A stretch of DNA of 64,000 bases, taken from assembly GCF_038595065.1 (NCBI RefSeq), contig NZ_CP152003.1, positions 1,902,001 through 1,966,000 on the forward strand, written 5' to 3'. Position 1 is the stretch's first letter; each line of letters starts with the position of its first letter. This document shows, piece by piece, positions 4,962 to 39,884 of the stretch. The position numbers and the translations under genes were made by a program. The notes beneath the pieces are model-generated. The model worked only from the letters and a program-made list of their open reading frames with translations. It had not been told where the DNA came from and made no database searches. The DNA comes from Sutcliffiella sp. FSL R7-0096 (lineage in GTDB: Bacteria > Bacillota > Bacilli > Bacillales > Bacillaceae_I).

Positions 4962-4982
4962 TGCGCTGCTATATGCAGCGCT

Positions 4983-5192
4983 CAGACTGTTGACAAACTA
5001 TAAACTAATTAGGTTATCTGTTGGAAGAGTTGATCTTCGTTCCAGGAGCTTCGCTTTCCGCGGGCAGTCCGGAAGCCTCCTCGGGCTACGCCCTGCGGGG
5101 TCTTCCATGTCCTTTCCTCCCGCAGGAGTCTTCGCTCCTTCCACTGCGATCAACTAGAGTATTTCATTATTTTAAGCTTTGTCTACACACTG
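4983..5192 (-). mobile_element. Terminator-inserted repeat element (family 1), copy A
   Basis: 210 bp, non-coding, inverted relative to the other three copies. Ends are CAGACTGTTGACAAAC and, on the other side, the complement of CAGTGTGTAGACAAAG. A GC-rich core lies between GTTGATC (5029) and GATCAAC (to 5154). It is flanked by an exact 21-bp direct repeat, 4962-4982 and 5193-5213, which is a whole terminator hairpin (arms GCGCTGC/GCAGCGC, loop TATAT). Only the right copy is followed by a T-run (5213-5218). Confidence 0.9.
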
Positions 5193-5218
5193 TGCGCTGC
5201 TATATGCAGCGCTTTTTT
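5193..5218 (+). terminator. Rho-independent terminator, right-hand copy at element A
   Basis: Stem GCGCTGC/GCAGCGC, 5-nt loop, TTTTTT tail. It is the functional copy of the terminator for the gene ending at 4961; the left copy (4963-4981) has lost its T-run. Confidence 0.85.
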
Positions 5219-5349
5219 AGTTGGTAAAGATCTTAAAATCTTAGATTAAAATACCAAAGTCCGGGGAAATTAAGATAAGTTATGGCTAGGTATCGTAATC
5301 TTTATGAATTCATTAGTGTTTAAGGCGATAAAGAGAGGGAATGTACATA

Positions 5350-5865
5350 ATGGAGATTGTCAATTACGACTACATTAACAGTTGGATGGTTTTAGGCTCC
5401 ATGGCGGACCCGCGTTGGTGGCTGTTATTTGTGTCAATCTTTTTTCCTTGGGTAATTTGGTGGAAAGCAGTGGATAGATCAAGGCTGTTTGAGATACTAT
5501 CATTTGGACTTTTTTGGGCTGCAATGGCAACTTGGTTGGATTTGCTGGGCACGACCTATAATATGTGGAGCTATCCATTCAAGTTAAATGATCATACTAC
5601 AACGCTTCTTCCGGCAGACGTTTCGGTCATCCCGGTGATGTACATGCTACTTTATCAGTTCTCATCTACTTGGAAGGCTTATGTTTTAGGAAGTATCTTA
5701 ATTGCCGTGATATTATCCTTTATCTTCGAACCCTTGTTTATACTATTTCAGATGTTCGAACTAAAAACCTGGTCACATACGAAGTCTCTTGTTTCATTTT
5801 CTCTACTAGCAATCATCACTAGGGCAATCTTTTATTTGTTAAGTTCCATCAAGAAACAGAATTGA
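5350..5865 (+). CDS. CBO0543 family integral membrane protein
   Basis: About 171 aa with five hydrophobic spans. The segment WWKAVDRSRLFEILSFGLF, then TWLDLLGTTYNMWSYPF and PADVSVIPVMYMLLYQ, matches what I know of the CBO0543 family of Bacillales/Clostridia membrane proteins, whose function is not known. The GAGAGGGA site ends at 5340, immediately before an ATG at 5341, so the ATG at 5350 is better spaced and preferred; starting at 5341 would add three residues. It is a single-gene unit between a repeat element and the trehalose promoter. Confidence 0.65.
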   Translation: MEIVNYDYINSWMVLGSMADPRWWLLFVSIFFPWVIWWKAVDRSRLFEILSFGLFWAAMATWLDLLGTTYNMWSYPFKLNDHTTTLLPADVSVIPVMYMLLYQFSSTWKAYVLGSILIAVILSFIFEPLFILFQMFELKTWSHTKSLVSFSLLAIITRAIFYLLSSIKKQN

Positions 5866-5885
5866 TTTTGGGAGAAACTTTTTAG

Positions 5886-5914
5886 TTGACGAACATGTAT
5901 ATACAAGTTAGACT
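5886..5914 (+). promoter_or_regulatory. Sigma-A promoter of the trehalose operon
   Basis: TTGACG (5886-5891), 17-bp spacer, TAGACT (5909-5914). The first TreR-like operator lies entirely within the spacer, so a bound repressor would block RNA polymerase. Confidence 0.65.
5894..5907 (+). promoter_or_regulatory. TreR-like operator 1
   Basis: CATGTATATACAAG, close to the palindrome CTTGTATATACAAG. B. subtilis TreR binds TTGTATATACAA-type palindromes, and treR is the last gene of this operon. Confidence 0.75.
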
Positions 5915-5926
5915 TGTAATCGTTAG

Positions 5927-5940
5927 CATGTATATACAAG
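5927..5940 (+). promoter_or_regulatory. TreR-like operator 2
   Basis: An identical 14-mer (CATGTATATACAAG) 33 bp after operator 1, about three helical turns, downstream of the -10. Same-face spacing suggests cooperative binding or looping. Confidence 0.75.
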
Positions 5941-5952
5941 TTGGATGTGAAA

Positions 5953-5966
5953 TGTAAGCGTTTATT
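5953..5966 (+). promoter_or_regulatory. Degenerate cre box (CcpA site)
   Basis: TGTAAGCGTTTATT matches the cre consensus TGWAANCGNTNWCA at all but the last two positions. Its place downstream of the start of transcription fits roadblock-type repression by glucose. Confidence 0.5.
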
Positions 5967-6025
5967 AAATGGAGTGAAAAATATAAAAAAATTTGGTCAA
6001 TACAACATTACTGGAGGGATTTTAT

Positions 6026-6535
6026 ATGTTCAAAAAGTTATTTGGCATGAAAGATACAACGGAAACTCCCACTGAAGAAGTAATTCTAGCCCCACTAAGC
6101 GGAAGGGTTACAGAATTGAGCGAGGTTCCTGATCCTACATTTTCTCAAAAGATGATGGGGGACGGATTAGCGATTGTTCCAACCGAAGGAGAGGTGGTTT
6201 CCCCTGTTGATGGGGAGATTATACAGTTCTTCCACACGAAACATGCTATCGGTATCCGTTCTCAAAGCGGTGCGGAAATTTTAATACATGTGGGACTTGA
6301 AACAGTATCAATGAATGGTGAGGGTTTTGAGGGGCATGTCAGGGAGGGGGATAAAGTGAAAGCCGGTGATAAGCTTATCACTTTTGACCTCCATTTAATC
6401 AATGAAAAAGCTGCAAGTACCATTACTCCAATCGTCATTACTAACGGAGAAAAGGTGGAAAACTTAGACAAAAAACTTTCAGATCAAGCAGTTAAAGGTC
6501 AAACAGAGATATTCCATCTAAAAACAAAAGCATAA
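6026..6535 (+). CDS. PTS glucose-type EIIA protein, likely for trehalose
   Basis: 169 aa, soluble EIIA(Glc)-family phosphocarrier. It takes phosphate from HPr on His88 ([10 protein letters not shown]) and passes it to the EIIB domain; the partner His73 is in TKHAIG. Start ATG 6026 has GGAGGG upstream; an earlier in-frame start at 5993 lacks one. The following treP has only B and C domains, so this single-domain EIIA is the obvious phosphate donor. In B. subtilis, TreP borrows an EIIA from another transporter, so an operon-encoded EIIA is a small difference. A 122-bp gap separates it from treP. Confidence 0.85.
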
Positions 6536-6657
6536 GGAATGTCAGAGAAGGTTCCGCAGGTGCCCAGTGGAAAGCGAAGCCTTATGGGGAGATTACCAGC
6601 GGTGTTATGAGGAATTTATAAAGATATAGTAGAGTAGGCAAACAGGAGGATACAGAT

Positions 6658-8073
6658 ATGGACATAAGAAAACAGGCGGAAGAAATTGTCCAAGCTTTAG
6701 GGGGAAAAGAAAACGTAAGTGCAGCCACGCATTGTGTGACTCGTCTCCGTTTGGCTTTGCATGATGAAGGCAAAGTAGATCAAGATGCCTTGGATAATAT
6801 AGATGTGGTGAAAGGCTCATTCTCAACAAATGGCCAGTTTCAGGTCGTAATTGGACAAGGAACAGTCAATAAAGTGTATAAGGAATTTGTGGATATAACT
6901 GGGGTTGGAGAGGCTTCCAAGGATGAAGTGAAAAAAGCTGCGGAATCCAACTTGAATCCGATTCAACGTGCGATCAAGACACTTGCGGATATTTTCATTC
7001 CAATATTACCAGCCATTGTTACTGCCGGTTTGCTCATGGGTATTAACAATCTTCTGACGGGAGAAGGCATTTTCTATAATGGGCAATCTGTCATTGATGT
7101 ACATCCACAATGGGCTGATATTGCAAGTATCATCAATCTTATTGCAAATACTGCTTTCGTCTTTCTACCAGGATTGATTGGTTGGTCAGCAGCCAAACGG
7201 TTTGGTGGGAGCGAATTGCTGGGAATTGTGTTAGGACTCATGCTCGTCCATCCGGATTTGCTTAATGCCTGGGGATATGCTGAGGCGCAGGAGGATGGGG
7301 CCGTTGAAACTTGGAAGTTCTTCGGTTTGGAAATCGAGAAAGTAGGATATCAGGGACAAGTACTACCAGTTCTAGTAGCTGCTTATGTGTTAGCTAAAGT
7401 GGAGCAGTTCTTATCAAAGCGGGTAAGCGATGCATTTCACATGCTTATTGTCCCTCCGATTACATTATTGCTGACAGGCTTTGTAACCTTTGTTGCTATT
7501 GGACCAGTTACATTTGCGATTGGTAATTTCCTAACAAACGGATTTGTTAATATCTTTGATGCTGTCCCTGCACTTGGTGGTTTGATCTATGGAGGACTAT
7601 ATGCACCACTTGTCATCACGGGGATGCATCATACATTTCTTGCGGTAGATTTCCAACTGATTGCTACAATCGGTGGGACATTCTTATGGCCAATGGTTGC
7701 CTTGTCTAACATTGCTCAAGGTTCAGCTGCTTTTGCCATGATGTTGGCTACGAAGGATGAAAAGCTGAAAGGTTTAGCGTTAACATCGTCCATCTCCGCA
7801 TGGTTGGGGATTACAGAACCGGCTATGTTCGGGGTAAACTTACGTTTCCGCTACCCATTCTTTGCTGCAATGATTGGTTCAGCCATTGCAGGTATTATCA
7901 TTACATTGGCAGGAGTAAAAGCCCCATCCATTGGGGTTGGTGGGATTCCGGCATTCTTCTCAATTATGGCAGAATACTGGCCAATCTTCTTCCTTGGAAT
8001 GGGGATCGTACTTGTCGTTCCATTCGCGATCACCTTCTTAATAGCAAAAGTGAAAATGAGAAAAGAAGCTTAA
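6658..8073 (+). CDS. treP: PTS trehalose transporter EIIBC
   Basis: 471 aa. Takes up trehalose and phosphorylates it to trehalose-6-phosphate. Residues 1-80 are the EIIB domain with the phosphorylated Cys26 in THCVTRLRL; residues about 105-465 are the EIIC membrane domain (about ten spans) with the typical NPIQRAIKTLADIF entry, GLIYGGLYAPLVITGMHHT and ITEPAMFGVNLR motifs. There is no EIIA domain, supplied by the previous gene. RBS AGGAGG is well placed before ATG 6658. The intercistronic hairpin that follows probably lowers expression of the downstream hydrolases. Confidence 0.9.
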   Translation: MDIRKQAEEIVQALGGKENVSAATHCVTRLRLALHDEGKVDQDALDNIDVVKGSFSTNGQFQVVIGQGTVNKVYKEFVDITGVGEASKDEVKKAAESNLNPIQRAIKTLADIFIPILPAIVTAGLLMGINNLLTGEGIFYNGQSVIDVHPQWADIASIINLIANTAFVFLPGLIGWSAAKRFGGSELLGIVLGLMLVHPDLLNAWGYAEAQEDGAVETWKFFGLEIEKVGYQGQVLPVLVAAYVLAKVEQFLSKRVSDAFHMLIVPPITLLLTGFVTFVAIGPVTFAIGNFLTNGFVNIFDAVPALGGLIYGGLYAPLVITGMHHTFLAVDFQLIATIGGTFLWPMVALSNIAQGSAAFAMMLATKDEKLKGLALTSSISAWLGITEPAMFGVNLRFRYPFFAAMIGSAIAGIIITLAGVKAPSIGVGGIPAFFSIMAEYWPIFFLGMGIVLVVPFAITFLIAKVKMRKEA

Positions 8074-8080
8074 GAATTGT

Positions 8081-8103
8081 AAAAAGGGGGTTGCCCCCTT
8101 TTT
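8081..8103 (+). terminator. Intercistronic terminator-like hairpin after treP
   Basis: AAAAAGGGGG/CCCCCTTTTT with a TTG loop, just after the treP stop. The downstream genes continue in the same direction without an evident new promoter, so it likely acts as a partial terminator or 3'-end stabiliser. Confidence 0.7.
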
Positions 8104-8153
8104 GCAATTTTTTCAATTTTAATACCTTGCAAAAACTTGAAGGGAGAGGTTGA

Positions 8154-9839
8154 TTGATGAATCATTCCTGGTGGAAGGAAAGTGTTGTATATCAAATTTA
8201 TCCTCGCAGCTTTATGGATTCTAACGGAGATGGCATCGGTGATATTCAAGGCATCATTTTAAAATTGGACTATCTAAAGGAACTTGGTGTCGATACCATA
8301 TGGCTTTCACCTGTTTACGAATCTCCTAACGATGATAATGGCTACGATATCAGCAATTACCATAAGATTATGGTTGAATTCGGCACTATGGAAGATTGGG
8401 AAGAACTGTTACAACAGGTACATATGCGAGAAATGAAATTGATCATGGACTTGGTGGTAAACCATACCTCTGATGAACATGAATGGTTTGTTCAGGCCAA
8501 ATCCTCGAAAGATAATCCATACCGCGATTATTACATCTGGAGAGACCCTAAAGAAGATGGAAGCGAACCGAACAATTGGGCATCCAATTTTGGAGGATCG
8601 GCTTGGGAATATAATGAAAAGACCGAGGACTACTATTTGCATCTCTTTTCCAAAAAGCAGCCTGACTTAAATTGGGGAAATGAAAAACTCCGGGATGAAA
8701 TATATAGCATGATGAAATGGTGGCTTGATAAGGGAATCGATGGCTTCCGGATGGATGTGATCAATTTTATATCAAAAGCCGAAGGCCTTCCAGATGGGGA
8801 AATAAAGCCTGGTCGTCCTTATGCTTCGGGGAGTAAATACTATAGAAATGGTCCAAATATACACGAATATTTACGTGAAATGAATCAGCAGGTATTATCT
8901 CATTACGATGTCATGACGGTAGGAGAAATGCCCGGTGTGACACCTGAACAGGCAAAAGATTATACGGGGGAAGATCGGAACGAATTGAACATGGTCTTTC
9001 AATTCGAGCATGTTGGCCTTGACAATGGCCCCAAGGGTAAATGGGATTTGAAGCCTCTTGATTTGATGGAACTTAAACAAAGCCTTTCGCGGTGGCAATA
9101 TGCCCTAGGGGAAAATGGTTGGAATAGCCTTTATTTCAATAATCATGATCAACCGCGTTCCCTTTCAAGGTTTGGGGACGATGGAAAGTATCGTATGGAA
9201 TCAGCAAAAATGCTGGCCACTCTTCTTCACATGATGAAAGGTACCCCATATGTGTATCAAGGGGAAGAATTGGGAATGACCAATGTTGCATTTGAAACGA
9301 TTGACTCCTACAAGGATATTGAAACGCTTCAAGCATATACCGAATTGAAGGAACAGGGCTTTAGTGAAGAGGAAGTGATGCAGAGTATCCATGAAAAAAG
9401 CAGGGACAATGCCAGGACTCCCATGCAGTGGACTTCTGAGGAATATGCTGGTTTCTCCACCTCAGAGCCATGGTTAGCTGTTAATCCTAATTATACATCC
9501 ATAAATGCCGAAGCAGAGGTGGCTAATGAAGCTTCTATCTTCCATTATTACAAGCAGCTTATCCAACTTCGTAGACAAAATGACTTGATCGTTTACGGTG
9601 ACTATCAATTGATCCTTGAGGAAGATCCTGAAATTTTTGCTTATGTAAGAACGTATCAGGATAAGAAACTTCTTGTGATTTGCAACTTTTATGAGGAGGA
9701 GCCGATATTCAAGCTTCCGAGAGAAATAAACTTCATGACAAAGCAACTCCTTTTAAGTAACTACAAAGTCGATGAGCAGACAAGTATTTCAGAGTTTAGC
9801 ATGCAACCTTATGAAGCTAGAGTCTACTTATTAAATTAA
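8154..9839 (+). CDS. GH13 alpha-glucosidase (oligo-1,6-glucosidase type)
   Basis: 561 aa, cytoplasmic glycoside hydrolase family 13, subfamily of oligo-1,6-glucosidases (MalL-like). Shows WWKESVVYQIYPRSF, the nucleophile Asp in GFRMDVIN (about residue 200), the acid Glu in TVGEMPG (about 257) and the third Asp in FNNHDQPR (about 331). It is clearly related to the next gene but lacks the features shared by true phosphotrehalases there, so it more likely hydrolyses unphosphorylated alpha-glucosides. Its place between treP and treA is not the B. subtilis order (treP-treA-treR). Strong RBS (GGGAGAGG) before ATG 8157 or 8154. Confidence 0.8.
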   Translation: MMNHSWWKESVVYQIYPRSFMDSNGDGIGDIQGIILKLDYLKELGVDTIWLSPVYESPNDDNGYDISNYHKIMVEFGTMEDWEELLQQVHMREMKLIMDLVVNHTSDEHEWFVQAKSSKDNPYRDYYIWRDPKEDGSEPNNWASNFGGSAWEYNEKTEDYYLHLFSKKQPDLNWGNEKLRDEIYSMMKWWLDKGIDGFRMDVINFISKAEGLPDGEIKPGRPYASGSKYYRNGPNIHEYLREMNQQVLSHYDVMTVGEMPGVTPEQAKDYTGEDRNELNMVFQFEHVGLDNGPKGKWDLKPLDLMELKQSLSRWQYALGENGWNSLYFNNHDQPRSLSRFGDDGKYRMESAKMLATLLHMMKGTPYVYQGEELGMTNVAFETIDSYKDIETLQAYTELKEQGFSEEEVMQSIHEKSRDNARTPMQWTSEEYAGFSTSEPWLAVNPNYTSINAEAEVANEASIFHYYKQLIQLRRQNDLIVYGDYQLILEEDPEIFAYVRTYQDKKLLVICNFYEEEPIFKLPREINFMTKQLLLSNYKVDEQTSISEFSMQPYEARVYLLN

Positions 9840-9872
9840 TTTATTTTATCAAAATGAACAGAGGTGTTTTGA

Positions 9873-11573
9873 ATGACGAAAATGGAAAAAGAACCTTGGT
9901 GGAAGAGATCGGTCGTCTATCAGATCTATCCCAAGAGCTTTAATGATACAACAGGAAATGGTGTAGGGGATATTCAAGGAATCATTGAGAAATTGGATTA
10001 CTTGAAAGAGCTAGGTGTAGACGTCATCTGGTTGACTCCTATTTATAAGTCACCTCAAAAAGACAATGGCTACGATATCAGTGATTATTTCTCCATCCAC
10101 GAAGAATACGGAACGATGGAGGACTTCGATCAGCTTTTAACAGAAGCGCATAGTAAGGGCATAAAAGTGATCATGGATATTGTGGTAAACCACACCTCAA
10201 CAGAGCATGAATGGTTCCAAAAATCCAAAGTGGCGAAAGAAAATAACCCATATCGCGATTTTTACATCTGGAAGGATTCGAAGGAAGATGGAAGTGAACC
10301 GACGAACTGGGAGTCCAAATTTGGCGGGAATGCATGGCGGTATGATGAGAAAACAGGACAATGGTATCTTCATCTGTTTGATGTCACCCAAGCGGATCTG
10401 AACTGGGAAAATGAAAAGGTCCGCAATGAGGTTTATGACATGATGACCTTTTGGTTTGAAAAGGGAGTGGATGGTTTCAGGCTGGATGTCATTAATCTTA
10501 TCTCCAAAAATCAGGATTTTCCTGATGATGATGGCTCCGTGCCTCCTGGAGATGGACGGAAATTTTACACAGACGGACCTCGCGTCCATGAGTACATGAA
10601 TGAAATGTATGAAAAAGTGTTCTCGAAATATGACAGCATGACAGTAGGAGAGATGTCCTCCACTACGATCGACCATTGTATTAAATATACCCGTCCCGAC
10701 CGTAATGAACTTAGCATGACTTTCAATTTCCATCACCTGAAAGTAGATTACCCAAATGGCGAAAAGTGGTCTGTTGCAGACTTTGACTTTCAACAATTGA
10801 AAGATATCCTATCGACTTGGCAGATCGAAATGGAAAAGGGCGGTGGCTGGAATGCCCTTTTCTGGTGCAACCATGATCAGCCCCGTATTGTTTCCCGTTA
10901 TGGTGACGATAAAAATTATCACAACAAATCTGCCAAAATGCTGGGAACAAGCATGCACATGATGCGTGGAACTCCATATATCTATCAAGGGGAAGAATTC
11001 GGAATGACCAACCCTGGATTTGTGAAAATAAGTGACTATCGTGACGTGGAATCGTTAAACACCTTTGAGCTGAAAAAAGAAGCGGGTATGAGTGAGGAGG
11101 AGATCCTAGAAATCCTTCGTCATAAATCACGTGATAATTCTAGAACACCCGTACAATGGAATTCGGAAGAAAATGCTGGATTTACTAAAGGTACACCATG
11201 GATTGGTGTAGCAAGCAACTATCCTAAAATCAATGCGGAAGTTGCATTGAAAGACGAAGATTCGGTTTTCTACCACTATAAAAAATTGATTGATCTTCGC
11301 AAACAATATGATGTCGTTACACATGGTGATTTCCAACTGATTGAAGGTGACCATACGGAAATTTTTGCTTACATTCGAAACTGTGAAAATGAAAAGCTGC
11401 TTGTAGTCAGCAACTACTACGGTATAAACACGTCATTTGAATTACCGGAAGATATTGATGTTGAAGGCTACAGTGCGGAAATATTATTGAGCAATTATGG
11501 GGATTCTCCACAGGAATATAAAAAACTTTCCTTACGTCCATACGAATCCATCGTTTATCACCTGAAAAAGTAA
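9873..11573 (+). CDS. treA: Trehalose-6-phosphate hydrolase (phosphotrehalase)
   Basis: 566 aa, cytoplasmic GH13 enzyme that splits trehalose-6-phosphate into glucose and glucose-6-phosphate. The sequence follows B. subtilis TreA closely: WWKRSVVYQIYPKSFNDTTG, TPIYKSPQKDNGYDI, FHHLKVDYPNGEKW and GGGWNALFWCNHDQPR. Catalytic residues: Asp about 204 (GFRLDVIN), Glu about 259 (TVGEMSS) and Asp about 333. It is 34 bp after the alpha-glucosidase and 28 bp before treR, in one operon. Confidence 0.92.
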   Translation: MTKMEKEPWWKRSVVYQIYPKSFNDTTGNGVGDIQGIIEKLDYLKELGVDVIWLTPIYKSPQKDNGYDISDYFSIHEEYGTMEDFDQLLTEAHSKGIKVIMDIVVNHTSTEHEWFQKSKVAKENNPYRDFYIWKDSKEDGSEPTNWESKFGGNAWRYDEKTGQWYLHLFDVTQADLNWENEKVRNEVYDMMTFWFEKGVDGFRLDVINLISKNQDFPDDDGSVPPGDGRKFYTDGPRVHEYMNEMYEKVFSKYDSMTVGEMSSTTIDHCIKYTRPDRNELSMTFNFHHLKVDYPNGEKWSVADFDFQQLKDILSTWQIEMEKGGGWNALFWCNHDQPRIVSRYGDDKNYHNKSAKMLGTSMHMMRGTPYIYQGEEFGMTNPGFVKISDYRDVESLNTFELKKEAGMSEEEILEILRHKSRDNSRTPVQWNSEENAGFTKGTPWIGVASNYPKINAEVALKDEDSVFYHYKKLIDLRKQYDVVTHGDFQLIEGDHTEIFAYIRNCENEKLLVVSNYYGINTSFELPEDIDVEGYSAEILLSNYGDSPQEYKKLSLRPYESIVYHLKK

Positions 11574-11600
11574 TGCTACAATAGTTGTAGGTGGTAGAAA

Positions 11601-12308: not shown

Positions 12309-12318
12309 ATAAAGTATT

Positions 12319-12356
12319 AAGCAGACACTATCTTTTTTGGGAGTGTCTGCTTTTTT
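12319..12356 (+). terminator. Terminator of the trehalose operon
   Basis: Perfect 11-bp stem AAGCAGACACT/AGTGTCTGCTT followed by a T-run. Confidence 0.92.
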
Positions 12357-12391
12357 CGTTTCAAATGCTTAGCTTTACTAAGTTGCCTTTT

Positions 12392-14457: not shown

Positions 14458-14463
14458 AACCCA

Positions 14464-19047: not shown

Positions 19048-19231
19048 GGCTGTTTTCGCAAACTTTGTTGCTTTTTCGTATAAATACACAGGCCGTTATT
19101 TTCCTCACTATCGTGCTCTTTTCCTTGCTGTATTTATAAAGCTACTTGCAATTTTCAGAGTAAGTGAGCAGTAAAAAGTCCAATTACCGACTTTTTACGA
19201 GTTAATAGGAACAATCTTTGAGAAAAGAGCC
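19048..19231 (-). mobile_element. MITE (family 2) with 8-bp target duplication
   Basis: 184 bp from GGCTGTTTTCG to GAGAAAAGAGCC. Inverted ends of about 25 bp are imperfect. Perfect 8-bp duplication AAGCAAAA at 19040-19047 and 19232-19239. An internal hairpin contains AAAAAGTC and GACTTTTT. It stops two bases before the next gene's Shine-Dalgarno. Confidence 0.9.
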
Positions 19232-21824: not shown

Positions 21825-22508
21825 ATGCTGAAAAATTGGACGGGTATCATAGCCATCATAACTATTTTATTTATAGGTTCGAGTCCAGCATCTGCCCAAG
21901 AGCCGGCGGAGGAAGAAGTTTTTCCATTTTTACAAGAGGCGTTCGAGTCTCAGCTTTCTTTAGGGGAGAGTCATCACACGATGGGAGAAATCCAAGAAAT
22001 ATTAGACCCTTATTTTACAAAGGAATATCAGGACAATTTTCTAGAGGAACATCTCTTTGAAGAAAAGGAAGGATATATTACATATGGGACAGACTTTCCG
22101 GCATATTATATTCCTTTCTTTTCCTACACAGATGAAACAAAGATTGTCGAAGGTAAAGATGGTGTCCTGATAGTTTATGAATTTTTTCCGTCAGACGAGG
22201 ATATGCCAAGTCTTTATGATGATCACTATGAGTTTGTAAAGTTATTGCCAAATGAATCGGGATGGAAGGTTATGGAGTGGGGTTTTGACTATAATGAACC
22301 TGATTTTATTGAAGGGATGGTAAGCGTTAGTGAGGAGAAGGAAATGAACTTGGGAGTCATGAACCAGGAAGTGTTGATTTCTCGCATGCTTGCTTTCGGT
22401 GTAATTGTTGCGCCGTTCAATAATCATTCCTATAAATTTTATGCCCCTTTGAAGGCAGCTCGAATGCTTCAAGAAAAACATTACCAGTCTTTTTTGGTTG
22501 CTAGATAA
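21825..22508 (+). CDS. Secreted DUF3993-like protein
   Basis: 227 aa. Signal peptide at residues 1-24 (TILFIGSSPASAQ) then a soluble domain with FPFLQEAFESQLSLGE, ILDPYFTKEYQDNFLEEHLF and VYEFFPSDEDMPSLYDDHYEF. This resembles the DUF3993 proteins of Bacillus as I recall them; function unknown. RBS GAGGAGG before ATG 21825. Its terminator has been split and duplicated by element copy B. Confidence 0.65.
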   Translation: MLKNWTGIIAIITILFIGSSPASAQEPAEEEVFPFLQEAFESQLSLGESHHTMGEIQEILDPYFTKEYQDNFLEEHLFEEKEGYITYGTDFPAYYIPFFSYTDETKIVEGKDGVLIVYEFFPSDEDMPSLYDDHYEFVKLLPNESGWKVMEWGFDYNEPDFIEGMVSVSEEKEMNLGVMNQEVLISRMLAFGVIVAPFNNHSYKFYAPLKAARMLQEKHYQSFLVAR

Positions 22509-22539
22509 AATCAAAAAAAAAGAGCGCATGTCGCTCTTT

Positions 22540-22756
22540 CAGCTTGTAGAAAAAGTAATATATTTTCAGTATATGCAATTCCCTTGTTGATTGTAGTGAA
22601 AGGCGCTCAGACTCCTGCGGGAGGAAGGGACAGGGGAGACCCCGCAGGGCGTAGCCCGAGGAGGCTCCCGGACCGCCCGCTGAAAGCGAAGCGCCTGTAA
22701 CGGAGATCAACAAGTAAATGCAATCCTAAAGAATATTAGGGTTTGTCAGCAGACTG
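22540..22756 (+). mobile_element. Terminator-inserted repeat element (family 1), copy B
   Basis: 217 bp, from CAGCTTGTAGAAAAAG to GTTTGTCAGCAGACTG. Flanked by a 19-bp direct repeat (22521-22539 and 22757-22775, one mismatch), i.e. the terminator hairpin AGAGCG-loop-CGCTCT plus TT. Core from GTTGATT to GATCAAC as in the others. Only the right copy has the full T-run. Confidence 0.9.
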
Positions 22757-22779
22757 AGAGCGAATGTCGCTCTTTTTTT
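22757..22779 (+). terminator. Rho-independent terminator, right-hand copy at element B
   Basis: AGAGCG/CGCTCT with AATGT loop and seven T; the functional terminator for the gene ending at 22508 after element insertion. Confidence 0.85.
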
Positions 22780-27359: not shown

Positions 27360-27380
27360 GGTAGATGCAAAACTTGATGG

Positions 27381-27685
27381 GATGAAGCCCTCAGTGGAGC
27401 GGAAATGGAGGGAGAGAGGTCCTCATGGGGGGATTGAAGACCTCAGAGGAGCGGAAATAGAGGGAGTGGGGTCCTCATAGGATGGATGAAGACCTCAGTG
27501 TAGCGGAAGTAGAAGGAGAGAGGTTTTCATAGTGGTGATGAAGACCTCAGTGTAGCGGAAGTAGAGGGAGAGAGGTCCTTATAGGATGGATGAAGACTTC
27601 AGTGTAGTGAAAGTAGAAGGGGAGAGGTCTTCATAGTGGTGATGAAGACCTCAGTGTAGCGGAAATAAAAGAAGAGAGGTTCACA
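27381..27685. repeat. Tandem array, six units of 52 bp
   Basis: Units start with GATGAAG (or GATTGAAG) at 27381, 27432, 27485, 27537, 27589 and 27641, spacing 51-53 bp. Each has GACCTCAG near its start and GAGAGGTC near its end, which can pair as a stem of up to 11 bp (ATGAAGACCTC with GAGGTCTTCAT) around a 22-nt purine-rich loop. A diverged half unit may follow to about 27770. Lies between convergent genes; no coding potential. Confidence 0.88.
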
Positions 27686-29536: not shown

Positions 29537-29618
29537 ATTTTATTGGATAATCCCTCCCACTAGTAGTAATATATAAACTTGAGAAACTAGACTGAAGATT
29601 AAGGTGGAACGATTTTAT

Positions 29619-30452
29619 ATGGAATGGAAGAATATTTATCGTGGTATTTTAATGGGAATCTGTGATGTAGTCCCTGGAGTGAGTGGTGGTACCATTGCTT
29701 TTATCCTTGGAATTTATGATCGGTTGATTGAGGCGATCAGTGGTTTTTTCAGTAAGGATTGGGCCAAACACCTTAAGTTCCTTATACCTTTAGGAATTGG
29801 GATTGTATCAGCACTGTTGCTTTTCAGTCATATCCTTGACTATTTATTGAAAACATACCCAGAACCTACTCATTTTTTATTTTTGGGATTGATCATTGGT
29901 GTATTGCCATTATTGGCAAAAGAGTCCGACATGAGGAATACCTTTACCGCAAGGCACTATATTGCATTAATAATTCCCCTTGTTTTGGTGGCATCCATGG
30001 CGTTTTTACAGGAATCCACCAGGCCTGTCATTGAAACATTGTCCCTCAGTTCTGCCATTAGTTTGTTTTTTGCTGGGTGGCTGGCAAGTATGAGTATGTT
30101 GCTTCCAGGGATAAGCGGATCACTTGTTCTATTGATTTTAGGATATTATGCGACAGCAATAGCTGCTTTGAAGGGGTTGAACTTGCCGATTATTCTTGTA
30201 ATCGGTGCAGGGGTTGCCATCGGGTTTATCGTATCAAGTAAAGTTATTAAGTATGTACTTCACCATTATCCTAAGATGACCTTTGCTGCGATTATCGGGC
30301 TTGTGATGGGTTCCACTGCAGTGGTGTACCAAGGCTTTTCATCAAGTATGCTTGTGAATGTTGTTTGCGTACTGACCTTCATTGCAGGTGTTATCATTGT
30401 CCAATTCATTGCCAGAACGAATGAAAGAATGGTACAAAAAAGAGAAGTTTAA
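29619..30452 (+). CDS. popT: DUF368 polyprenyl-phosphate transporter (PopT-like)
   Basis: 277 aa from ATG 29619, a polytopic membrane protein with two DUF368 repeats. Diagnostic: GICDVVPGVSGGTIAFILG near the start and SMLLPGISGSLVLLILG near the middle. Proteins of this family return undecaprenyl phosphate to the cytoplasmic face for wall polymer synthesis. AAGGTGG at 29600 is 12 bp from the ATG 29619; GTG 29604 is an alternative. The stop codon is embedded in the terminator stem duplicated by element copy C. Confidence 0.8.
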   Translation: MEWKNIYRGILMGICDVVPGVSGGTIAFILGIYDRLIEAISGFFSKDWAKHLKFLIPLGIGIVSALLLFSHILDYLLKTYPEPTHFLFLGLIIGVLPLLAKESDMRNTFTARHYIALIIPLVLVASMAFLQESTRPVIETLSLSSAISLFFAGWLASMSMLLPGISGSLVLLILGYYATAIAALKGLNLPIILVIGAGVAIGFIVSSKVIKYVLHHYPKMTFAAIIGLVMGSTAVVYQGFSSSMLVNVVCVLTFIAGVIIVQFIARTNERMVQKREV

Positions 30453-30462
30453 AAACTTCTCT

Positions 30463-30680
30463 CAGTGTGTAGACAAAGTTATTTAATCTTCAAGATATGC
30501 AAATATCATGTTGATCGTAGTGGAAGAAGCGCAGACTCCTGCGGGAGGAAGGGACATGGGAGACCCCGCAGGGCGTAGCCCGAGGAGGCTCCCGGACCGC
30601 CCGCGGAAAGCGAAGCGTCTGAAACGTAGATCAACAATTATATGCAATTCCAAAAATAAATTGGGTTTGTCAACAGTCTG
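30463..30680 (+). mobile_element. Terminator-inserted repeat element (family 1), copy C
   Basis: 218 bp from CAGTGTGTAGACAAAG to GTTTGTCAACAGTCTG. Flanked by an exact 22-bp direct repeat, 30441-30462 and 30681-30702: a terminator hairpin (AGAGAAGTTT/AAACTTCTCT, loop AA). The left copy contains the popT stop codon; only the right has the T-run (to 30709). The core lies between GTTGATC and GATCAAC. Best-preserved copy. Confidence 0.92.
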
Positions 30681-30709
30681 AGAGAAGTTTAAAAACTTCT
30701 CTTTTTTTT
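30681..30709 (+). terminator. Rho-independent terminator, right-hand copy at element C
   Basis: AGAGAAGTTT/AAACTTCTCT, two-base loop, eight T. Terminates popT transcripts after the inserted element. Confidence 0.88.
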
Positions 30710-32865: not shown

Positions 32866-32936
32866 CAAAATCCATCTTCTCTTTAGTATAAAAAGGCGAA
32901 TTCAAGCCACATTAACAAAGAGGAGGTGGATTACAT

Positions 32937-33182: not shown

Positions 33183-33183
33183 A

Positions 33184-33208
33184 AAAGAGCCGAGCTGGCT
33201 CTTTTTTT
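33184..33208 (+). terminator. Terminator of ykuS
   Basis: AAAGAGCC/GGCTCTTT, five-base loop, then T-run. Confidence 0.88.
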
Positions 33209-33331
33209 GTTGCTTCGACTTTGGTTTGGGACCTCTATTCATAGGGGGTCTATGATCAATGGAAGGATGAAGATATTTTTAATGAATAAAGTGGTTTCGG
33301 CATTTCTACTAATCAACGAGCTGCTGTAAGC

Positions 33332-33366
33332 AAAAAAAGTCCAGAGTGTGTGTGCGCTCTGGACTT
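33332..33366 (-). terminator. Terminator of the MscS gene
   Basis: On the minus strand, AAGTCCAGAG/CTCTGGACTT with a 9-base loop and a T-run (the A-run 33332-33338). Confidence 0.88.
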
Positions 33367-33378
33367 CCAATAAAAAAT

Positions 33379-34218: not shown

Positions 34219-34498
34219 TAAACTTAAACTCCCTTCTCTGTTGTGGAAAAAATGATAATTAGTTCTAATAAGGCATTATAAAGTATTCAGGACTGAAAAC
34301 CAAATTATTTATAGGATGTGAACGGATAAGCTTTTTACTTTTTCCTAAAAGTAAAGAATGTTATTATAAGTATGGAGAAAAAATTCCCATTAAACTCTAA
34401 GGTTACATTTTTAATCTTAAGGGAATACCAACAAGGTGAAAATGGAGAAGGTTATATGATTTGCTTTTGGTCTAAATTAAATTAATTATCATTTAACA

Positions 34499-34527
34499 TT
34501 GACTAAAAATAAAGAGTGGTTTATAAT
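34499..34527 (+). promoter_or_regulatory. Sigma-A promoter of ykuU
   Basis: TTGACT, 17-bp spacer, perfect TATAAT. About 80 bp upstream of the ATG. Confidence 0.8.
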
Positions 34528-34549
34528 AGTTGATGTTGATTAAATAACT

Positions 34550-34580
34550 AAATGAGAATTATTGATTAATATTCTCATTT
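34550..34580 (+). promoter_or_regulatory. Palindrome in the ykuU leader
   Basis: Perfect 10-bp arms AAATGAGAAT and ATTCTCATTT with an 11-base A/T-rich centre, starting about 17 bases after the predicted transcription start. It could be a dyad operator of the Fur/PerR type (A/T-rich, TGAGAAT half-sites) or an mRNA hairpin before the Shine-Dalgarno GGAGGG. Not decided. Confidence 0.55.
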
Positions 34581-34607
34581 GAAATTACAACTTGGAGGGA
34601 TTTACAA

Positions 34608-35150
34608 ATGGCAGAACGCATGGTAGGTAAACAAGCTCCACGTTTTGAAATGGACGCTGTATTACCAAACAAAGAATTTGGAAAAGTAAGCTTAGAAGAA
34701 AACATGAAAAACGATAAGTGGACAGTACTTTTCTTCTACCCAATGGATTTCACGTTCGTTTGCCCGACTGAAATCACTGCAATGTCTGATCGCTACGAAG
34801 AGTTCGAAGACTTAGATGCAGAAATCATTGGAGTATCTACTGATACTATCCACACGCACTTAGCTTGGATCAATACAGATCGCAAAGACAACGGTCTTGG
34901 CGAATTAAGATATCCATTAGCTGCTGACACTAATCACGTTGTATCTCGCGACTACGGAGTTCTTATTGAAGATGAAGGTATCGCGCTTCGTGGATTATAC
35001 ATCATCAGCCCAGAAGGCGAATTACAATACCAAACAGTATTCCACAACAACATCGGCCGTGATGTAGAAGAAACACTACGTGTACTTCAAGCATTGCAAA
35101 CTGGTGGACTTTGCCCAGCGAACTGGAAGCCTGGACAAGCTACATTATAA
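34608..35150 (+). CDS. ykuU: 2-Cys peroxiredoxin (YkuU)
   Basis: 180 aa, typical 2-Cys peroxiredoxin. The peroxidatic Cys52 is in FTFVCPTE and the resolving Cys about 169 in GGLCPANW; GLYIISPEG and RDYGVLIEDEG are also conserved. Reduces H2O2 and organic peroxides. RBS GGAGGG before ATG 34608. Followed by a terminator, then ykuV, which has its own RBS and encodes a thioredoxin-fold protein likely to recycle or cooperate with it. Confidence 0.92.
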   Translation: MAERMVGKQAPRFEMDAVLPNKEFGKVSLEENMKNDKWTVLFFYPMDFTFVCPTEITAMSDRYEEFEDLDAEIIGVSTDTIHTHLAWINTDRKDNGLGELRYPLAADTNHVVSRDYGVLIEDEGIALRGLYIISPEGELQYQTVFHNNIGRDVEETLRVLQALQTGGLCPANWKPGQATL

Positions 35151-35168
35151 TTTGATGCAACCAAGAAT

Positions 35169-35198
35169 AAGGTCTAACGTTTTTCGTTAGGCCTTTTC
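35169..35198 (+). terminator. Terminator between ykuU and ykuV
   Basis: AAGGTCTAACG/CGTTAGGCCTT, five-base loop, then TTCTTT; interrupted T-run suggests partial read-through. Confidence 0.75.
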
Positions 35199-35234
35199 TT
35201 TGCACTACATAGATATAATAGGAGGTTTTAAAGA

Positions 35235-35684
35235 ATGAAATTACGCTCCCCGATGCCTGAATTGACTGGCGCGACAGAATGGTTGAACGGACAGGTAACC
35301 AAAGTGGACCTGATTGGCGAGAAGCCGACACTTATTCATTTCTGGTCCGTAAGCTGCCATCTATGTAAAGAAGCGATGCCACAAGTAAATGAGTTTCGAG
35401 ATAACTACAAGGACAAGTTAAACGTGATTGCAGTTCACATGCCACGCTCTGAGGACGACTTGAATCTCGATTCCATCAAGAAGACTGCAAGTGAGCATGA
35501 TATCACTCAGCCGATCTTCGTTGACAGTGAACATAAATTAACAGATGCATTTGAAAATCAATATGTACCTGCTTATTATGTATTTGATGCTGAAGGTAAT
35601 CTCCGCCACTTCCAGGCTGGCGGAAGTGGGATGAAAATGCTTGAAAAACGTGTAAATCGTGTATTGGGTGAAATGGAGAAATAA
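35235..35684 (+). CDS. ykuV: Thiol-disulfide oxidoreductase (YkuV)
   Basis: 149 aa, cytoplasmic thioredoxin-fold protein with the TlpA-like insert. Active-site CHLC (Cys41, Cys44) in FWSVSCHLCKE; cis-proline in YVPAYYVF. No signal peptide or anchor. In B. subtilis it is a thioredoxin-like reductant adjacent to the peroxiredoxin YkuU, as here. RBS AGGAGG before ATG 35235. Confidence 0.9.
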   Translation: MKLRSPMPELTGATEWLNGQVTKVDLIGEKPTLIHFWSVSCHLCKEAMPQVNEFRDNYKDKLNVIAVHMPRSEDDLNLDSIKKTASEHDITQPIFVDSEHKLTDAFENQYVPAYYVFDAEGNLRHFQAGGSGMKMLEKRVNRVLGEMEK

Positions 35685-35699
35685 GCTTTTATGAATGAA

Positions 35700-35733
35700 A
35701 AAAGGATTGCCTTAAAAAAGGTGATCCTTTTTT
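35700..35733 (+). terminator. Terminator of ykuV
   Basis: AAAAGGATTGCC/GGTGATCCTTTT followed by T. Confidence 0.82.
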
Positions 35734-35988
35734 CTATTCAGCGCAACCAACAACTGATTCTATTTAACAGACCAATTCTCATATACTCTAAAGTTGTTCT
35801 TTTCTCCGTCTAAAGATGTAGGGTAATTCCGTCTTTGTGTCACTTACAATGTCCCATGCAAAGAAATAAAATAATAGTATAAATAATTTAAATTTTTCAA
35901 AAAAAGACTGGATAAATATTTCGAAACTCGATATATTAGATACTATCTTATATTTTCCAGCATGAGTTAACAAAGGGAGGGAATACAT

Positions 35989-37743
35989 GTGGAGACTTTT
36001 AAGAAACTTAAAGAGTTTTATTGGCCTTATCGCAAAAATTTCTATATTTCCTTGATATTTTTGCTTTTAGTAACGGTCATCACCGTCATTTATCCTGTTA
36101 TTTTACAGGTGACGATTGATGAAATTATTGAAAAACAACAATTCCAATACGTACCATATATTGCAATTGGATTCATTGGAATCATGGCATTAAAGGGATT
36201 ATTTACCTATTACAATCAATTCTTAGGTGACCTTTTCGGGATCCGTTCGGTGTATCGCTTACGAAACGAATTGTATGAAAAGCTGCAATTCCTACCGTTT
36301 CGTTATTATGACAATGCGAAGACAGGGGATTTGATGTCAAGACTGACAGCAGATGTAGAAGGTTTCAGGTTTTTCCTATCATTTGGATTTGCCGAACTGA
36401 TACGGTTTGTCTTGTTAGTAACCATTAGTTTAAGTTTAATGTTCTATTATTCAGTGGCTTTAACCTTTGTCACATTGTTGGCTATGCCTTTTCTAGCCTT
36501 TGTCACCTATCGTTTTGATAAAAGGGTTCACCCTGCATTCCGTGGTATACGTAAATCATTCGGGAAATTGAATACGAATGTACAGGAGAATATTAGTGGC
36601 ATTAACACGGTTAAATCTTTATCTCGTGAAGATTATCAAATTAACAAATTCAATAATTCCAATGTAGATTACAAGGAAAAATATATTACTACATCTAATG
36701 TCTGGGCAAAATTCTTCCCGCTAATGGAATTCATCGGTAATGCATGTGTGGTGGGTTTGCTTGCATTTGGAGGTTATTTGGTAATCAATGGCCAATTGTC
36801 TGAAGGGGCACTAGTAGCATTCTTCAGTTTAGTCTGGTATATTGTTTGGCCGATTGCGAACTTAGGATTTGTCATCAATCAGTTCTCCCAAGCAAAAGCA
36901 TCCGGGGAACGATTACTGGAGATATTAGAGGCAGAAGAGGATATTCAAGACACACCAGATGCGAAGGATGTCCCAAATTTAAAAGGGCATGTAACGTTTG
37001 AGGATGTTACATTCCGTTATCCAAATGAGGATAAAACGGCCCTTGAAAATGTATCTTTTGAGGCACCTCCTGGAAAGCAGATTGGATTGATAGGTGCGAC
37101 AGGTTCTGGTAAAACAAGTATCACCCAACTTATTACAAGATTTTATGAGCCACAGTCCGGCCGTATTTTAATTGATGGGGAAGAAGTCAATAAATACTCG
37201 CTGTATTCCCTCCGAAACCAAATCGGTTTTGTACTACAGGAATCTTTCTTATTTTCTTCCACTATTAAATCAAACATTGCATATGGGCGACCAAATGCTT
37301 CAATGGAAGAAATTGTTCGTGCTGCGAAAATGGCACAGGCGCATGAATTTATAATGGAACTTCCTGACGGCTACGATACGATGCTTGGTGAACGCGGAAT
37401 GGGCCTTTCCGGAGGTCAGAAACAACGTATCGCCATCGCTCGTGCGTTAATCCTTGATCCAAGTATCTTAGTTTTGGATGATGCAACAAGTGCAGTAGAT
37501 ATGCAGACGGAGTTTAATATACAAAGAGAATTAAAGGCTGCATTGGCTGGAAGAACAACCTTTATCATCGCTCACCGTATTTCCTCTCTTAAACATGCGG
37601 ATGAAATCCTCGTATTAGAAGAAGGAAAAGTCGTAGAGCGCGGAACACATGACGAGCTTGTCCAAAAGAATGGGGCATATCGTAGAATCTATGATATCCA
37701 GTACAAGGACCAAAAAACGGTTTTGGAAGCTCAGACTAACTAA
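35989..37743 (+). CDS. yknU: ABC exporter half, degenerate-site subunit (YknU-like)
   Basis: 584 aa. N-terminal membrane domain (six spans, residues about 15-320) and C-terminal nucleotide-binding domain. Walker A GATGSGKTS (about 368), signature LSGGQ (about 473) and Walker B LVLDDATS, where the catalytic Glu is replaced by Asp (about 497). With yknV it should form a heterodimeric multidrug/lipid-type exporter; this subunit contributes the Asp of the non-hydrolysing site. Start GTG 35989 with GGGAGGG upstream. 17 bp before yknV. Confidence 0.88.
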   Translation: METFKKLKEFYWPYRKNFYISLIFLLLVTVITVIYPVILQVTIDEIIEKQQFQYVPYIAIGFIGIMALKGLFTYYNQFLGDLFGIRSVYRLRNELYEKLQFLPFRYYDNAKTGDLMSRLTADVEGFRFFLSFGFAELIRFVLLVTISLSLMFYYSVALTFVTLLAMPFLAFVTYRFDKRVHPAFRGIRKSFGKLNTNVQENISGINTVKSLSREDYQINKFNNSNVDYKEKYITTSNVWAKFFPLMEFIGNACVVGLLAFGGYLVINGQLSEGALVAFFSLVWYIVWPIANLGFVINQFSQAKASGERLLEILEAEEDIQDTPDAKDVPNLKGHVTFEDVTFRYPNEDKTALENVSFEAPPGKQIGLIGATGSGKTSITQLITRFYEPQSGRILIDGEEVNKYSLYSLRNQIGFVLQESFLFSSTIKSNIAYGRPNASMEEIVRAAKMAQAHEFIMELPDGYDTMLGERGMGLSGGQKQRIAIARALILDPSILVLDDATSAVDMQTEFNIQRELKAALAGRTTFIIAHRISSLKHADEILVLEEGKVVERGTHDELVQKNGAYRRIYDIQYKDQKTVLEAQTN

Positions 37744-37760
37744 AAGGCAGGTGAAACAAA

Positions 37761-39608
37761 GTGCGCAAAAAACAGAAAATTGAATTGAATGACAATGTAA
37801 AAAAGAGATTCTACTATTCTACTGACCAGGCGATCGAAAAACCGTTCAACTGGCAACAGATGTGGAGACTGTTCTCTTATATGAAACCATACTCCAAGAC
37901 CTTGCTGCCGCTAGCAATCATAACGATGCTAATTGCAACTGCTGTAAGGTTGGCAATACCAATCATAATCGGTAAATACCTATACGATGTTGCTATAAAA
38001 CAAAAAGATATGGATATGCTTGTACAACTGGCGGTGATTGTTTCCGTTTTATATGTCATATCTTATGTGGCGAATGCATTGAGGATCCGATGGATGAACA
38101 TGCTTGGACAAAATGTCATCTATGATTTAAGGAAGCACCTTTTCACACATGTACAAGGTCTGTCCCACCGCTTTTTCGATCAACGTTCGGCTGGTTCTAT
38201 CCTTGTTCGTATCATGAATGATATCAACTCTTTGCAGGAATTGTTTACAAACGGTGTTATCAATCTGCTTATGGATTTTATTTTATTGATTGGTATCGTG
38301 GTCATTCTATTTACTTTAAGTCCGGAATTGGCAACAGCCATCTTGGTTATCCTTCCGATCATGTTTTTCATTTCTACAAGCTTGCGTAGAAAGATCAGAA
38401 GAGCATGGCAGGATGTTCGTATTAAGCAATCGATGCTGAACTCCCATTTAAATGAAAGTATCCAAGGTGTCCGGGTTACACAATCCTTTACGCAAGAAAG
38501 AGAGAACATGGGATTCTTTGACCGCATCAATACGGAAAACTTTGAATCCTGGAAAAATGCGACTAGACAGAATGCCATTTTCCGTCCATTTGTTGAAATG
38601 ACCAATGCGGTTGGAACAGCCATTCTTATCTGGTTTGGAGCCTACCTTATCCAACTAAGTATGACGGGTGGTTCCAGTACTCTAACGGTCGGGATCTTCA
38701 TTTCCTTTGCATTCTATTTAGGAATGTTCTGGGAGCCGATTTCACGATTGGGTCAACTTTACAATATGCTTCTTGTCGGGATGGCTTCTTCCGAACGTAT
38801 TTTTGAATTTTTGGATGAAAAACCGATAGTTGATGAGAAGGATAATGCAGTCAATCTGGAAACAATCCGCGGAGAGATTGAATTTAAAAATGTGGAGTTT
38901 TCTTATGACAGTAAGCGCACGGCGTTGAACCAGATTTCATTGAAAATGGAAGCAGGGCAAACTGTCGCATTGGTGGGGCATACGGGTTCTGGTAAAACTA
39001 CCATCGCTAACTTGATTTCACGATTCTATGATGCAACAGGCGGAGAAGTGAAAATTGATGGTTACAATATTCGCGACATTTCCCTTCAAAGCTTACGTTC
39101 ACAAATCAGTGTGGTCTTACAGGATACCTTTATTTTCTCAGGGACTATCAATGATAATATCCGCTTCGGTCGCCCTACTGCCACCGACGAAGAGGTAAGG
39201 GCTGCTGCTGAAGCGGTCGGCGCAAACGAGTTTATCGAGCGCTTGAAAAATGGGTATGATACAGAAGTTGAGGAAAGGGGAAATGTCCTTTCTGTCGGAG
39301 AAAGACAATTGATTTCCTTTGCACGTGCGTTACTAGCCGATCCTAGCATCATTATTTTAGATGAAGCAACAGCTAGTATTGATACGGAAACGGAAGTGAA
39401 GATACAGACTGCACTTAAACAGCTTTTGAAAGGTCGGACGGCTATCATTATCGCTCACCGTCTATCTACTATTCGCGAGGCAGATAACATCATTGTCCTT
39501 GATCATGGGAATATCATGGAGCAGGGCAATCATGGTGAGTTGATGGAGCATGGCGGTATCTATTATCACTTAGTAAAAGCACAATTTACGATGCAGGATG
39601 TAAGCTGA
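37761..39608 (+). CDS. yknV: ABC exporter half, catalytic subunit (YknV-like)
   Basis: 615 aa, same architecture as its partner with a longer N-terminus. Walker A GHTGSGKTT (about 404), Walker B ILDEATAS with the catalytic Glu (about 534), and a non-canonical signature LSVGE (about 510) instead of LSGGQ. The complementary defects of the two subunits make one consensus and one degenerate ATP site. Start GTG 37761, RBS AGGTGA. Substrate unknown. The terminator after it is duplicated by element copy D. Confidence 0.88.
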   Translation: MRKKQKIELNDNVKKRFYYSTDQAIEKPFNWQQMWRLFSYMKPYSKTLLPLAIITMLIATAVRLAIPIIIGKYLYDVAIKQKDMDMLVQLAVIVSVLYVISYVANALRIRWMNMLGQNVIYDLRKHLFTHVQGLSHRFFDQRSAGSILVRIMNDINSLQELFTNGVINLLMDFILLIGIVVILFTLSPELATAILVILPIMFFISTSLRRKIRRAWQDVRIKQSMLNSHLNESIQGVRVTQSFTQERENMGFFDRINTENFESWKNATRQNAIFRPFVEMTNAVGTAILIWFGAYLIQLSMTGGSSTLTVGIFISFAFYLGMFWEPISRLGQLYNMLLVGMASSERIFEFLDEKPIVDEKDNAVNLETIRGEIEFKNVEFSYDSKRTALNQISLKMEAGQTVALVGHTGSGKTTIANLISRFYDATGGEVKIDGYNIRDISLQSLRSQISVVLQDTFIFSGTINDNIRFGRPTATDEEVRAAAEAVGANEFIERLKNGYDTEVEERGNVLSVGERQLISFARALLADPSIIILDEATASIDTETEVKIQTALKQLLKGRTAIIIAHRLSTIREADNIIVLDHGNIMEQGNHGELMEHGGIYYHLVKAQFTMQDVS

Positions 39609-39644
39609 GAATAAAAGGAGACATCGGTTTTTGGGCCGATGTCT

Positions 39645-39852
39645 CAGTGTTTAAACAAAGTAAATTTCATAAAGTTTTCAAGTTGATTGTAGTGGAATGC
39701 GCGCAGACTCCTGAGGGAGGAAGGGACAAGGGAGACCCCGCAGGGCGCAGCCTGAGGAGGCTCCCGGACCGCCCGCGGAAAGCGAAGCGGCTGTAACGGA
39801 GATCAACGAGTAAATGAAAATCTAAAGATTATTAGGGTTTGTCAACAGTCTG
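39645..39852 (+). mobile_element. Terminator-inserted repeat element (family 1), copy D
   Basis: 208 bp from CAGTGTTTAAACAAAG to GTTTGTCAACAGTCTG. Flanked by a 26-bp direct repeat with two differences, 39619-39644 and 39853-39878, again a full terminator hairpin (arms AGACATCG/CGATGTCT). Only the right copy carries the T-run. Confidence 0.9.
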
Positions 39853-39884
39853 AGACATCGTTTTTTTGGCCGATGTCTTTTTTG
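39853..39884 (+). terminator. Rho-independent terminator, right-hand copy at element D
   Basis: AGACATCG... CGATGTCT, 10-nt loop, six T. Ends the yknUV transcript. Confidence 0.85.

Follow-up and report, generated by a model that had tools for sequence, protein, structure and literature searches.

A stretch of 64,000 nucleotides from Sutcliffiella sp. FSL R7-0096 (positions 1,902,001-1,966,000 of the 4.9-Mb single-contig genome; hereafter the window) contains four copies of a short repeat element, each located between two copies of a terminator hairpin. All four elements lie where a first-pass annotation of this DNA had placed them and have the ends CAG...CTG that it described (Table 1), and re-measurement of the flanking direct repeats agrees with its account of two exact duplications (21 and 22 bp), one with a single mismatch and one with two. 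The elements are 208-218 bp long, contain no transposase gene, occur in multiple copies and are surrounded by target duplications, which places them among the miniature inverted-repeat transposable elements (MITEs). The terminal inverted repeat (TIR) CAGNNTGTNGACAAA is found on both ends with at most one mismatch in three of the four copies, and with at most two in copy 4. At copy 1, the gene at 4473-4961 presumably still has a terminator available via the right hairpin.

Table 1. Coordinates of the four elements, their internal structured cores and their flanking hairpins in the window.
Feature	Position	Strand	Remarks
Copy 1 left terminator hairpin, 21 bp	4962..4982	.	Exact repeat of 5193-5213
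Copy 1 MITE, 210 bp	4983..5192	-	Ends CAGACTGTTGACAAA / TTTGTCTACACACTG; inverted relative to the other three copies
Copy 1 structured core	5029..5154	-	135.4 bits, model R1
Copy 1 right hairpin	5193..5213	+	Followed by T-run; exact repeat of 4962-4982
Copy 2 left hairpin, 19 bp	22521..22539	.	Downstream of DUF3993 gene (21825-22508)
Copy 2 MITE, 217 bp	22540..22756	+	
Copy 2 structured core	22586..22711	+	129.4 bits; other strand 23.6 bits
Copy 2 right hairpin	22757..22775	+	With T-run; 1 mismatch to left hairpin
Copy 3 left hairpin, 22 bp	30441..30462	.	Overlaps end of VCA0040-like (undecaprenyl phosphate translocase-like) gene (29604-30452)
Copy 3 MITE, 218 bp	30463..30680	+	
Copy 3 structured core	30510..30635	+	132 bits
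Copy 3 right hairpin	30681..30702	+	With T-run; exact match to left hairpin
Copy 4 left hairpin, 26 bp	39619..39644	.	Downstream of ABC transporter gene (37761-39608)
Copy 4 MITE, 208 bp	39645..39852	+	
Copy 4 structured core	39682..39807	+	118.3 bits
Copy 4 right hairpin	39853..39878	+	With T-run; 2 mismatches to left hairpin

Distribution of the element in the host genome

A DNA search of the whole genome returned 271 candidates, the best 40 of which were taken with their flanks as a first sample, and left and right flanks were mispaired in 4000 combinations as a control (maximum control score, 6). The flanking direct repeat scored above all 4000 mispaired controls in 36 of the 40 loci and was exact in 19, which rules out the chance co-occurrence of repeats and hairpins that the first-pass annotation had judged very unlikely. 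Among the remaining four loci, L010 had lost its right end, and two diverged hairpins were still visible at L011, L012 and L015. The second sample consisted of 40 core copies not yet retrieved, drawn from the covariance-model list (20 high and 20 lower scorers) without regard to their ends. Both terminal repeats (at most two mismatches) were present in 17 of these, with 16 scoring above the duplication threshold and L314 equal to it. Among the 23 core copies without such ends (hereafter IS1182 ends, after the family of insertion sequences (ISs) described below), 22 had no flanking direct repeat above the mispaired-control maximum of 10. Over the two samples from the host genome, a duplicated local hairpin surrounds 52 of the 57 retrieved copies with at least one recognisable end, so the arrangement noted in the window holds for other family members as well. 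The terminal-repeat pattern (at most one mismatch) matched this genome 168 times, compared to 34 times for the reversed pattern.

Four copies (L021-L024) are near-identical, which suggests activity of the element in the recent past. At L025 (host genome, 2715000-2715700) two core-bearing copies adjoin, and the hairpin that the first has duplicated borders the second. L323, a core copy in which no IS1182 ends are recognisable, lies between two copies of a 19-nt hairpin and is perhaps a decayed copy.

Target hairpins and geometry of the duplication

The hairpin sequences vary from site to site among the host-genome copies, and the length of the duplication varies with the hairpin. A T-run or A-run stands beside the hairpin in 35 of 36 scored MITE cases and 60 of 61 cases of full-length ISs; the same rule is satisfied by 1736 of 9135 random window positions (19%). 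With a GC-rich stem-loop followed by a T-run or preceded by the complementary A-run, the targets have the hallmarks of intrinsic terminators acting in one or both directions. Exact duplications are exactly symmetric about the hairpin centre in 74 of 78 cases, together with 0-3 outer A or T nucleotides beyond the stem. Variable, hairpin-centred duplications of this kind are not predicted by a fixed stagger but are predicted by cuts at the feet of the hairpin, and centring on the hairpin is what would be expected if the element were joined to the 5' foot of each cruciform arm. After insertion, CAG replaces the U-tract behind the first hairpin and the second hairpin retains its U-tract; termination would probably take place at the second hairpin, with the gene keeping its stop signal.

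Empty sites in related genomes

For each of the four insertions in the window, orthologous genes from up to 15 relatives in the genus were compared. In 10 of 15 relatives a lone hairpin whose stem is that of copy 4 (GACATCGG...CCGATGTC, slightly altered) stands at the copy 4 site, and the terminal repeat is absent. At the copy 3 site, at least 10 of 14 relatives have one GAGAG...CTCTC hairpin, and a core-like repeat without IS1182 ends is found about 50 bases past the single hairpin in G007, G009, G013, G015 and G016. One AAAGAGCG...CGCTCTTT-like hairpin is present at the copy 2 site in 10 of 15 relatives, four relatives giving only partial protein matches. The copy 1 site was compared in 12 of 16 rows, corresponding to 11 relatives, among them G007, G012 and G015, each with a single hairpin that differs in sequence. 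The first-pass annotation had expected a single hairpin at orthologous terminators lacking the insertion, and this is what was found at the copy 2, 3 and 4 sites, though not at copy 1.

In the closest relative, G011, an element with a different left end (L221) lies beside the same terminator as copy 2, likely as an independent insertion into it.

Full-length IS1182-family elements

The transposase family PF13751 is present in 9 of 18 genomes of the bacterial family, and 7 of 30 PF13751 loci have the same terminal repeats on both sides (at most one mismatch) and are flanked by hairpins. A scan of GTDB genomes with one such transposase gave 463 loci, of which the best 80 were kept, all from named Bacillaceae and relatives. 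Allowing at most two mismatches over 11 fixed positions at each end, both TIRs of the CAGNNTGTNGACAAA type surround the transposase gene in 72 of the 80 loci, and eight lack one or both; the 72 include L092 and L093, whose left ends are poor matches and possibly false. Five of the 72 had too little flank, leaving 67 ISs for the duplication test. Whole-hairpin duplication was observed in 61 of the 67 (59 exact, 19-42 nt) across 31 named genomes. All three transposases tested scored 474-483 bits against the NCBIfam IS1182 model NF033551 (cut-off 270) and exceeded the cut-offs of PF13751, PF05598 and PF01609, with DUF772 and DDE_Tnp_1_6 both present.

Since full ISs and MITEs have their ends and the duplication in common, whole-hairpin duplication is, on the sequences compared, a behaviour of a clade of complete IS1182-family ISs, and the window elements look like non-autonomous kin of this clade. 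The proposals made at first pass therefore fared well: a non-autonomous mobile element agrees with the common TIRs, the same hairpin duplication in full ISs and the single-hairpin empty sites; specificity for terminators agrees with the T-runs or A-runs beside the scored hairpins; and an IS1182-type parent, suggested as a possibility, gains from the transposase scores and the common terminal repeats.

The ends of several ISs (L101, L124, L128, L135, L152, L153 and others) appear by eye to be terminator-like, with a hairpin followed by a T-run, and the hairpin at the left IS terminus is formed by the terminal repeat together with an inverted copy of that repeat lying further inside. A second IS1182-type group occurs in the genus (L047 and L048, ends GAGGCTGGGACA), in two copies only and with no flanking duplication. 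Part of the L047 transposase, when searched against plasmids, matched 487 records, and several among the matches listed were labelled as IS1182 family.

The structured core

The middle of each element is occupied by a core, a 126-nt segment GTTGATC...GATCAAC. An alignment of 49 diverse copies out of 151 candidate cores gives 32 base pairs, 16 of them with changes on both sides, and 98.4% of cells are paired; structures slid along the alignment pair 31-54% of cells, and none of 500 shuffles reached the observed values. The consensus fold energy is -40.8 kcal/mol for the element plus strand versus -24.8 kcal/mol for the other strand. At least 150 copies are present in the host genome (covariance model; best 150 of 1305 candidates, all matching). 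Cores were found in 98 of 150 genomes of the order by DNA search and in 45 of 200 genomes of the class by covariance model under stricter filters.

Among ISs of at least 1700 bp, 33 of 35 contain a core, which lies on the opposite strand in the interval from the left end to the transposase gene; 22 were detected by BLAST and 11 more by the covariance model, the search with which covered 56 of 110 loci in the IS set, and L078 and L092 are without one. A second core copy lies near the right end of L121, L126 and L134. No core was detected by BLAST in the 37 ISs shorter than 1700 bp.

The core is not confined to elements with IS1182 ends, which are lacking in 23 of the 40 second-sample copies from the host genome; of the 84 core loci tested from beyond the genus, not one had both. 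Automatic searches for inverted repeats around other cores were mostly uninformative, and their flanks were then read directly. In G033 and G066 (L292-L301) the core is bounded by the unrelated ends GGCTNTGTTAAA / TTTAACAGAGCC, L294 and L296 also having exact 8-bp repeats, and similar ends accompany it in the host genome at L345 and L349. In G106 (L252-L254) it is found near GGCTGTTTTCGTA-like ends. The initial reading of a mobile, terminator-targeting element of IS1182 type stands, with the amendment that the core extends beyond that element. The core is a separate covarying module, perhaps an RNA, common to several mobile or MITE types.

No Rfam 15 family matched the core at its gathering score. 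The only similar family was RF02577 (tsr24, a Staphylococcus aureus small RNA), at 26.1 and 23.9 bits against a gathering score of 50, so the core was rejected as a known Rfam family; other weak matches (Phe_leader, mir-81, SNORA77 and others) derive from terminators and long hairpins.

A degenerate or deleted core (38 bits, minus strand) lies at 53928-53994 in the window. Cores can themselves be IS targets: in G008, a different IS1182-type IS (L053 and L065, 1864 bp, ends GAGGCCACTGAAAAAG) lies inside small hairpin regions of core repeats, with 8- and 9-bp duplications.

Proposed mechanism and alternative explanations

It is very probable that the elements are MITEs mobilised in trans by a DDE transposase of the IS1182 family, one that selects targets by their shape. 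The terminator palindrome would be extruded as a cruciform, or opened during transcription, and on each strand the transposase would join the element's 3' end to the hairpin's 5' foot; gap repair would then copy the whole hairpin, leaving one copy on each side. The left hairpin would lose its U-tract, and because a full hairpin with U-tract follows the element, an insertion should cost the host gene little. Each insertion would also add a structured core to the 3' untranslated region (UTR).

Several points weigh against this interpretation. The host genome contains no transposase detectable by PF13751 or PF01609 (other families were not tried), so that current mobilisation is not demonstrable, and six of the 67 ISs are without duplication (L092, L093, L113, L145, L146 and L149), L113 running into Ns. 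The MITE and the ISs have only the terminal repeats and the core in common, their spacers being different, and the hairpin beside each IS terminus is missing from the MITE, which leaves derivation from a sampled IS by simple internal deletion no more than a possibility. No clean empty site for copy 1 was found among the 11 relatives, and an insertion is present there in the closest of them, G011, as well. Furthermore, IS1272, the best-known member of the family, removes the hairpin instead. Finally, cruciform extrusion is only inferred, and transposition is deduced from existing sequences rather than from new events.

Other explanations of the paired hairpins must also be considered. The two hairpins may predate the element as a tandem terminator, the element preferring the position between them. 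Tandem terminators exist in general, but in relatives the copy 2, 3 and 4 sites hold just one hairpin, with a matching stem, which contradicts this explanation at three of the four window sites, and the similarity between left and right copies is far above that between mispaired flanks; such an origin is extremely improbable. It is very unlikely, although no search aimed at a reverse transcriptase was made, that the element is instead an RNA that, like group IIC introns, enters terminators and spreads through reverse transcription, with the IS1182 ends incidental: the core does have the covariation of a structured RNA, and group IIC introns favour terminator stem-loops, but protein-coding ISs with the same ends yield the same duplications, and 22 of the 23 core copies without IS1182 ends have no flanking duplication. 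Replacement of the stem-loop as in IS1272, with flanking hairpins of some other origin, would have precedents in IS1272 and TnSha1, which belong to the same family and are described in the available text of their reports as replacing or partly deleting hairpins (PMC5678879, PMC4923244), and the GAGGCTGGGACA-ended group in the genus, with its two copies only, also lacks a duplication. The complete hairpin on both sides of 52 of 57 MITE copies, and likewise of 61 of 67 ISs, argues against replacement, to which we assign a very low probability.

The nature of the core is a less settled matter. That it represents a new structured regulatory RNA family in Bacilli, with more than 100 host copies and spreading via different mobile elements, is a tentative proposal that we consider rather doubtful. 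It is unlikely, too, that the core is filler or a DNA-level fold-back whose pairing is a by-product of an inverted repeat and not an RNA function. In favour of a fold-back, the whole element folds back on itself, long hairpins yield weak matches to unrelated Rfam families, and the excess of G-U over A-C cells on the plus strand (28 to 4) is partly circular; the reverse-strand fold also gives 142 G-U to 16 A-C, and this same bias weakens any assignment of the core strand from G-U counts. Against it stand the compensatory changes in 16 of the 32 pairs, the conserved unpaired motifs and the better folding of one strand.

Implications

The elements described here provide 113 natural cases (52 MITE, 61 IS) of what appears to be structure-directed insertion in which the target duplication is the whole hairpin. 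Trans mobilisation into terminators would explain a dispersed Bacillus intergenic repeat, and it suggests a way for a mobile element to limit harm, by rebuilding the terminator that it hits. It also raises the testable question of whether a DDE transposase can recognise DNA shape, with the foot of a cruciform setting the cut. In addition, the results draw attention to a structured module that is widespread and reaches the gathering score of no Rfam 15 family. If the core does prove to be a regulatory RNA, each insertion would put an RNA into the 3' UTR of a working gene whose terminator is retained, and the host would gain a dispersed set of co-regulated 3' UTRs.

Other features of the window

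A tandem array of a 52-bp unit (5.8 copies, approximately 80% matches) occupies 27379-27680, and another dispersed repeat family, marked by a motif close to AAAAAGTCNGCAATTGGACTTTTT, occurs at 19157, 21604, 44233, 59078 and 60460. The SR1 small RNA (Rfam RF02376) was identified at 57272-57511 (52.9 bits versus 45).

Comparison with known systems

Bacterial MITEs such as RUP and Correia/NEMIS are short, non-coding, high-copy elements with TIRs and target duplications that are presumed to be mobilised in trans. The present elements resemble them in being short, non-coding and high-copy, with TIRs and a target duplication, and differ from them in the variable-length duplication of a whole hairpin and in the covarying core. 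Group IIC introns share the preference for terminator stem-loops, whereas the ends and the duplication seen here are held in common with DDE insertion sequences. The alignment of the core with tsr24 is on the same strand, includes the core motifs AGACUCC..GGGAG and GGAAAGCGAAGC and covers the model from end to end; the core differs from tsr24 in that its score of 26.1 bits is well short of the gathering score.

A literature search on the bcr4/bcr5 repeats of the Bacillus cereus group gave nothing usable, and tsr24 was not mentioned in the portions of the literature seen among the matches listed. Within titles and the openings of abstracts, with few subscription papers and no ISfinder entries among them, neither an IS1182-type MITE in Bacillus nor whole-hairpin duplication as an observed outcome was found.

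The present clade resembles IS1272 and TnSha1 of staphylococci in transposase family and in having inverted repeats or terminators as targets. According to the available text of the two reports, IS1272 replaces its target stem-loop (PMC5678879, Wan et al. 2017), and TnSha1 targets hairpins, several of them confirmed terminators, and deletes part of them (PMC4923244, Furi et al. 2016). The targets of both are inverted repeats with no sequence consensus, and palindrome targeting by some IS1182 members is credited to Siguier et al. (in PMC5678879 and PMC4923244). As far as these texts go, an IS1182-family member that targets terminators has already been published, with hairpin removal rather than duplication: the hairpin hit by IS1272 or TnSha1 is replaced or loses a part and is not duplicated, whereas the present clade duplicates it whole. 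Whole-hairpin duplication is not general in the IS1182 family, because a table lists direct repeats of 4 bp for ISCaa15 (IS1182) of A. asiaticus (PMC3196728). In the available text of PMC5678879, pathway b of Fig 13, in which joining at the 5' feet duplicates the stem-loop, is a hypothetical alternative for IS1272. The outcome in the present clade is that of pathway b, and what the published model gave merely as a possibility is thus the outcome observed here.

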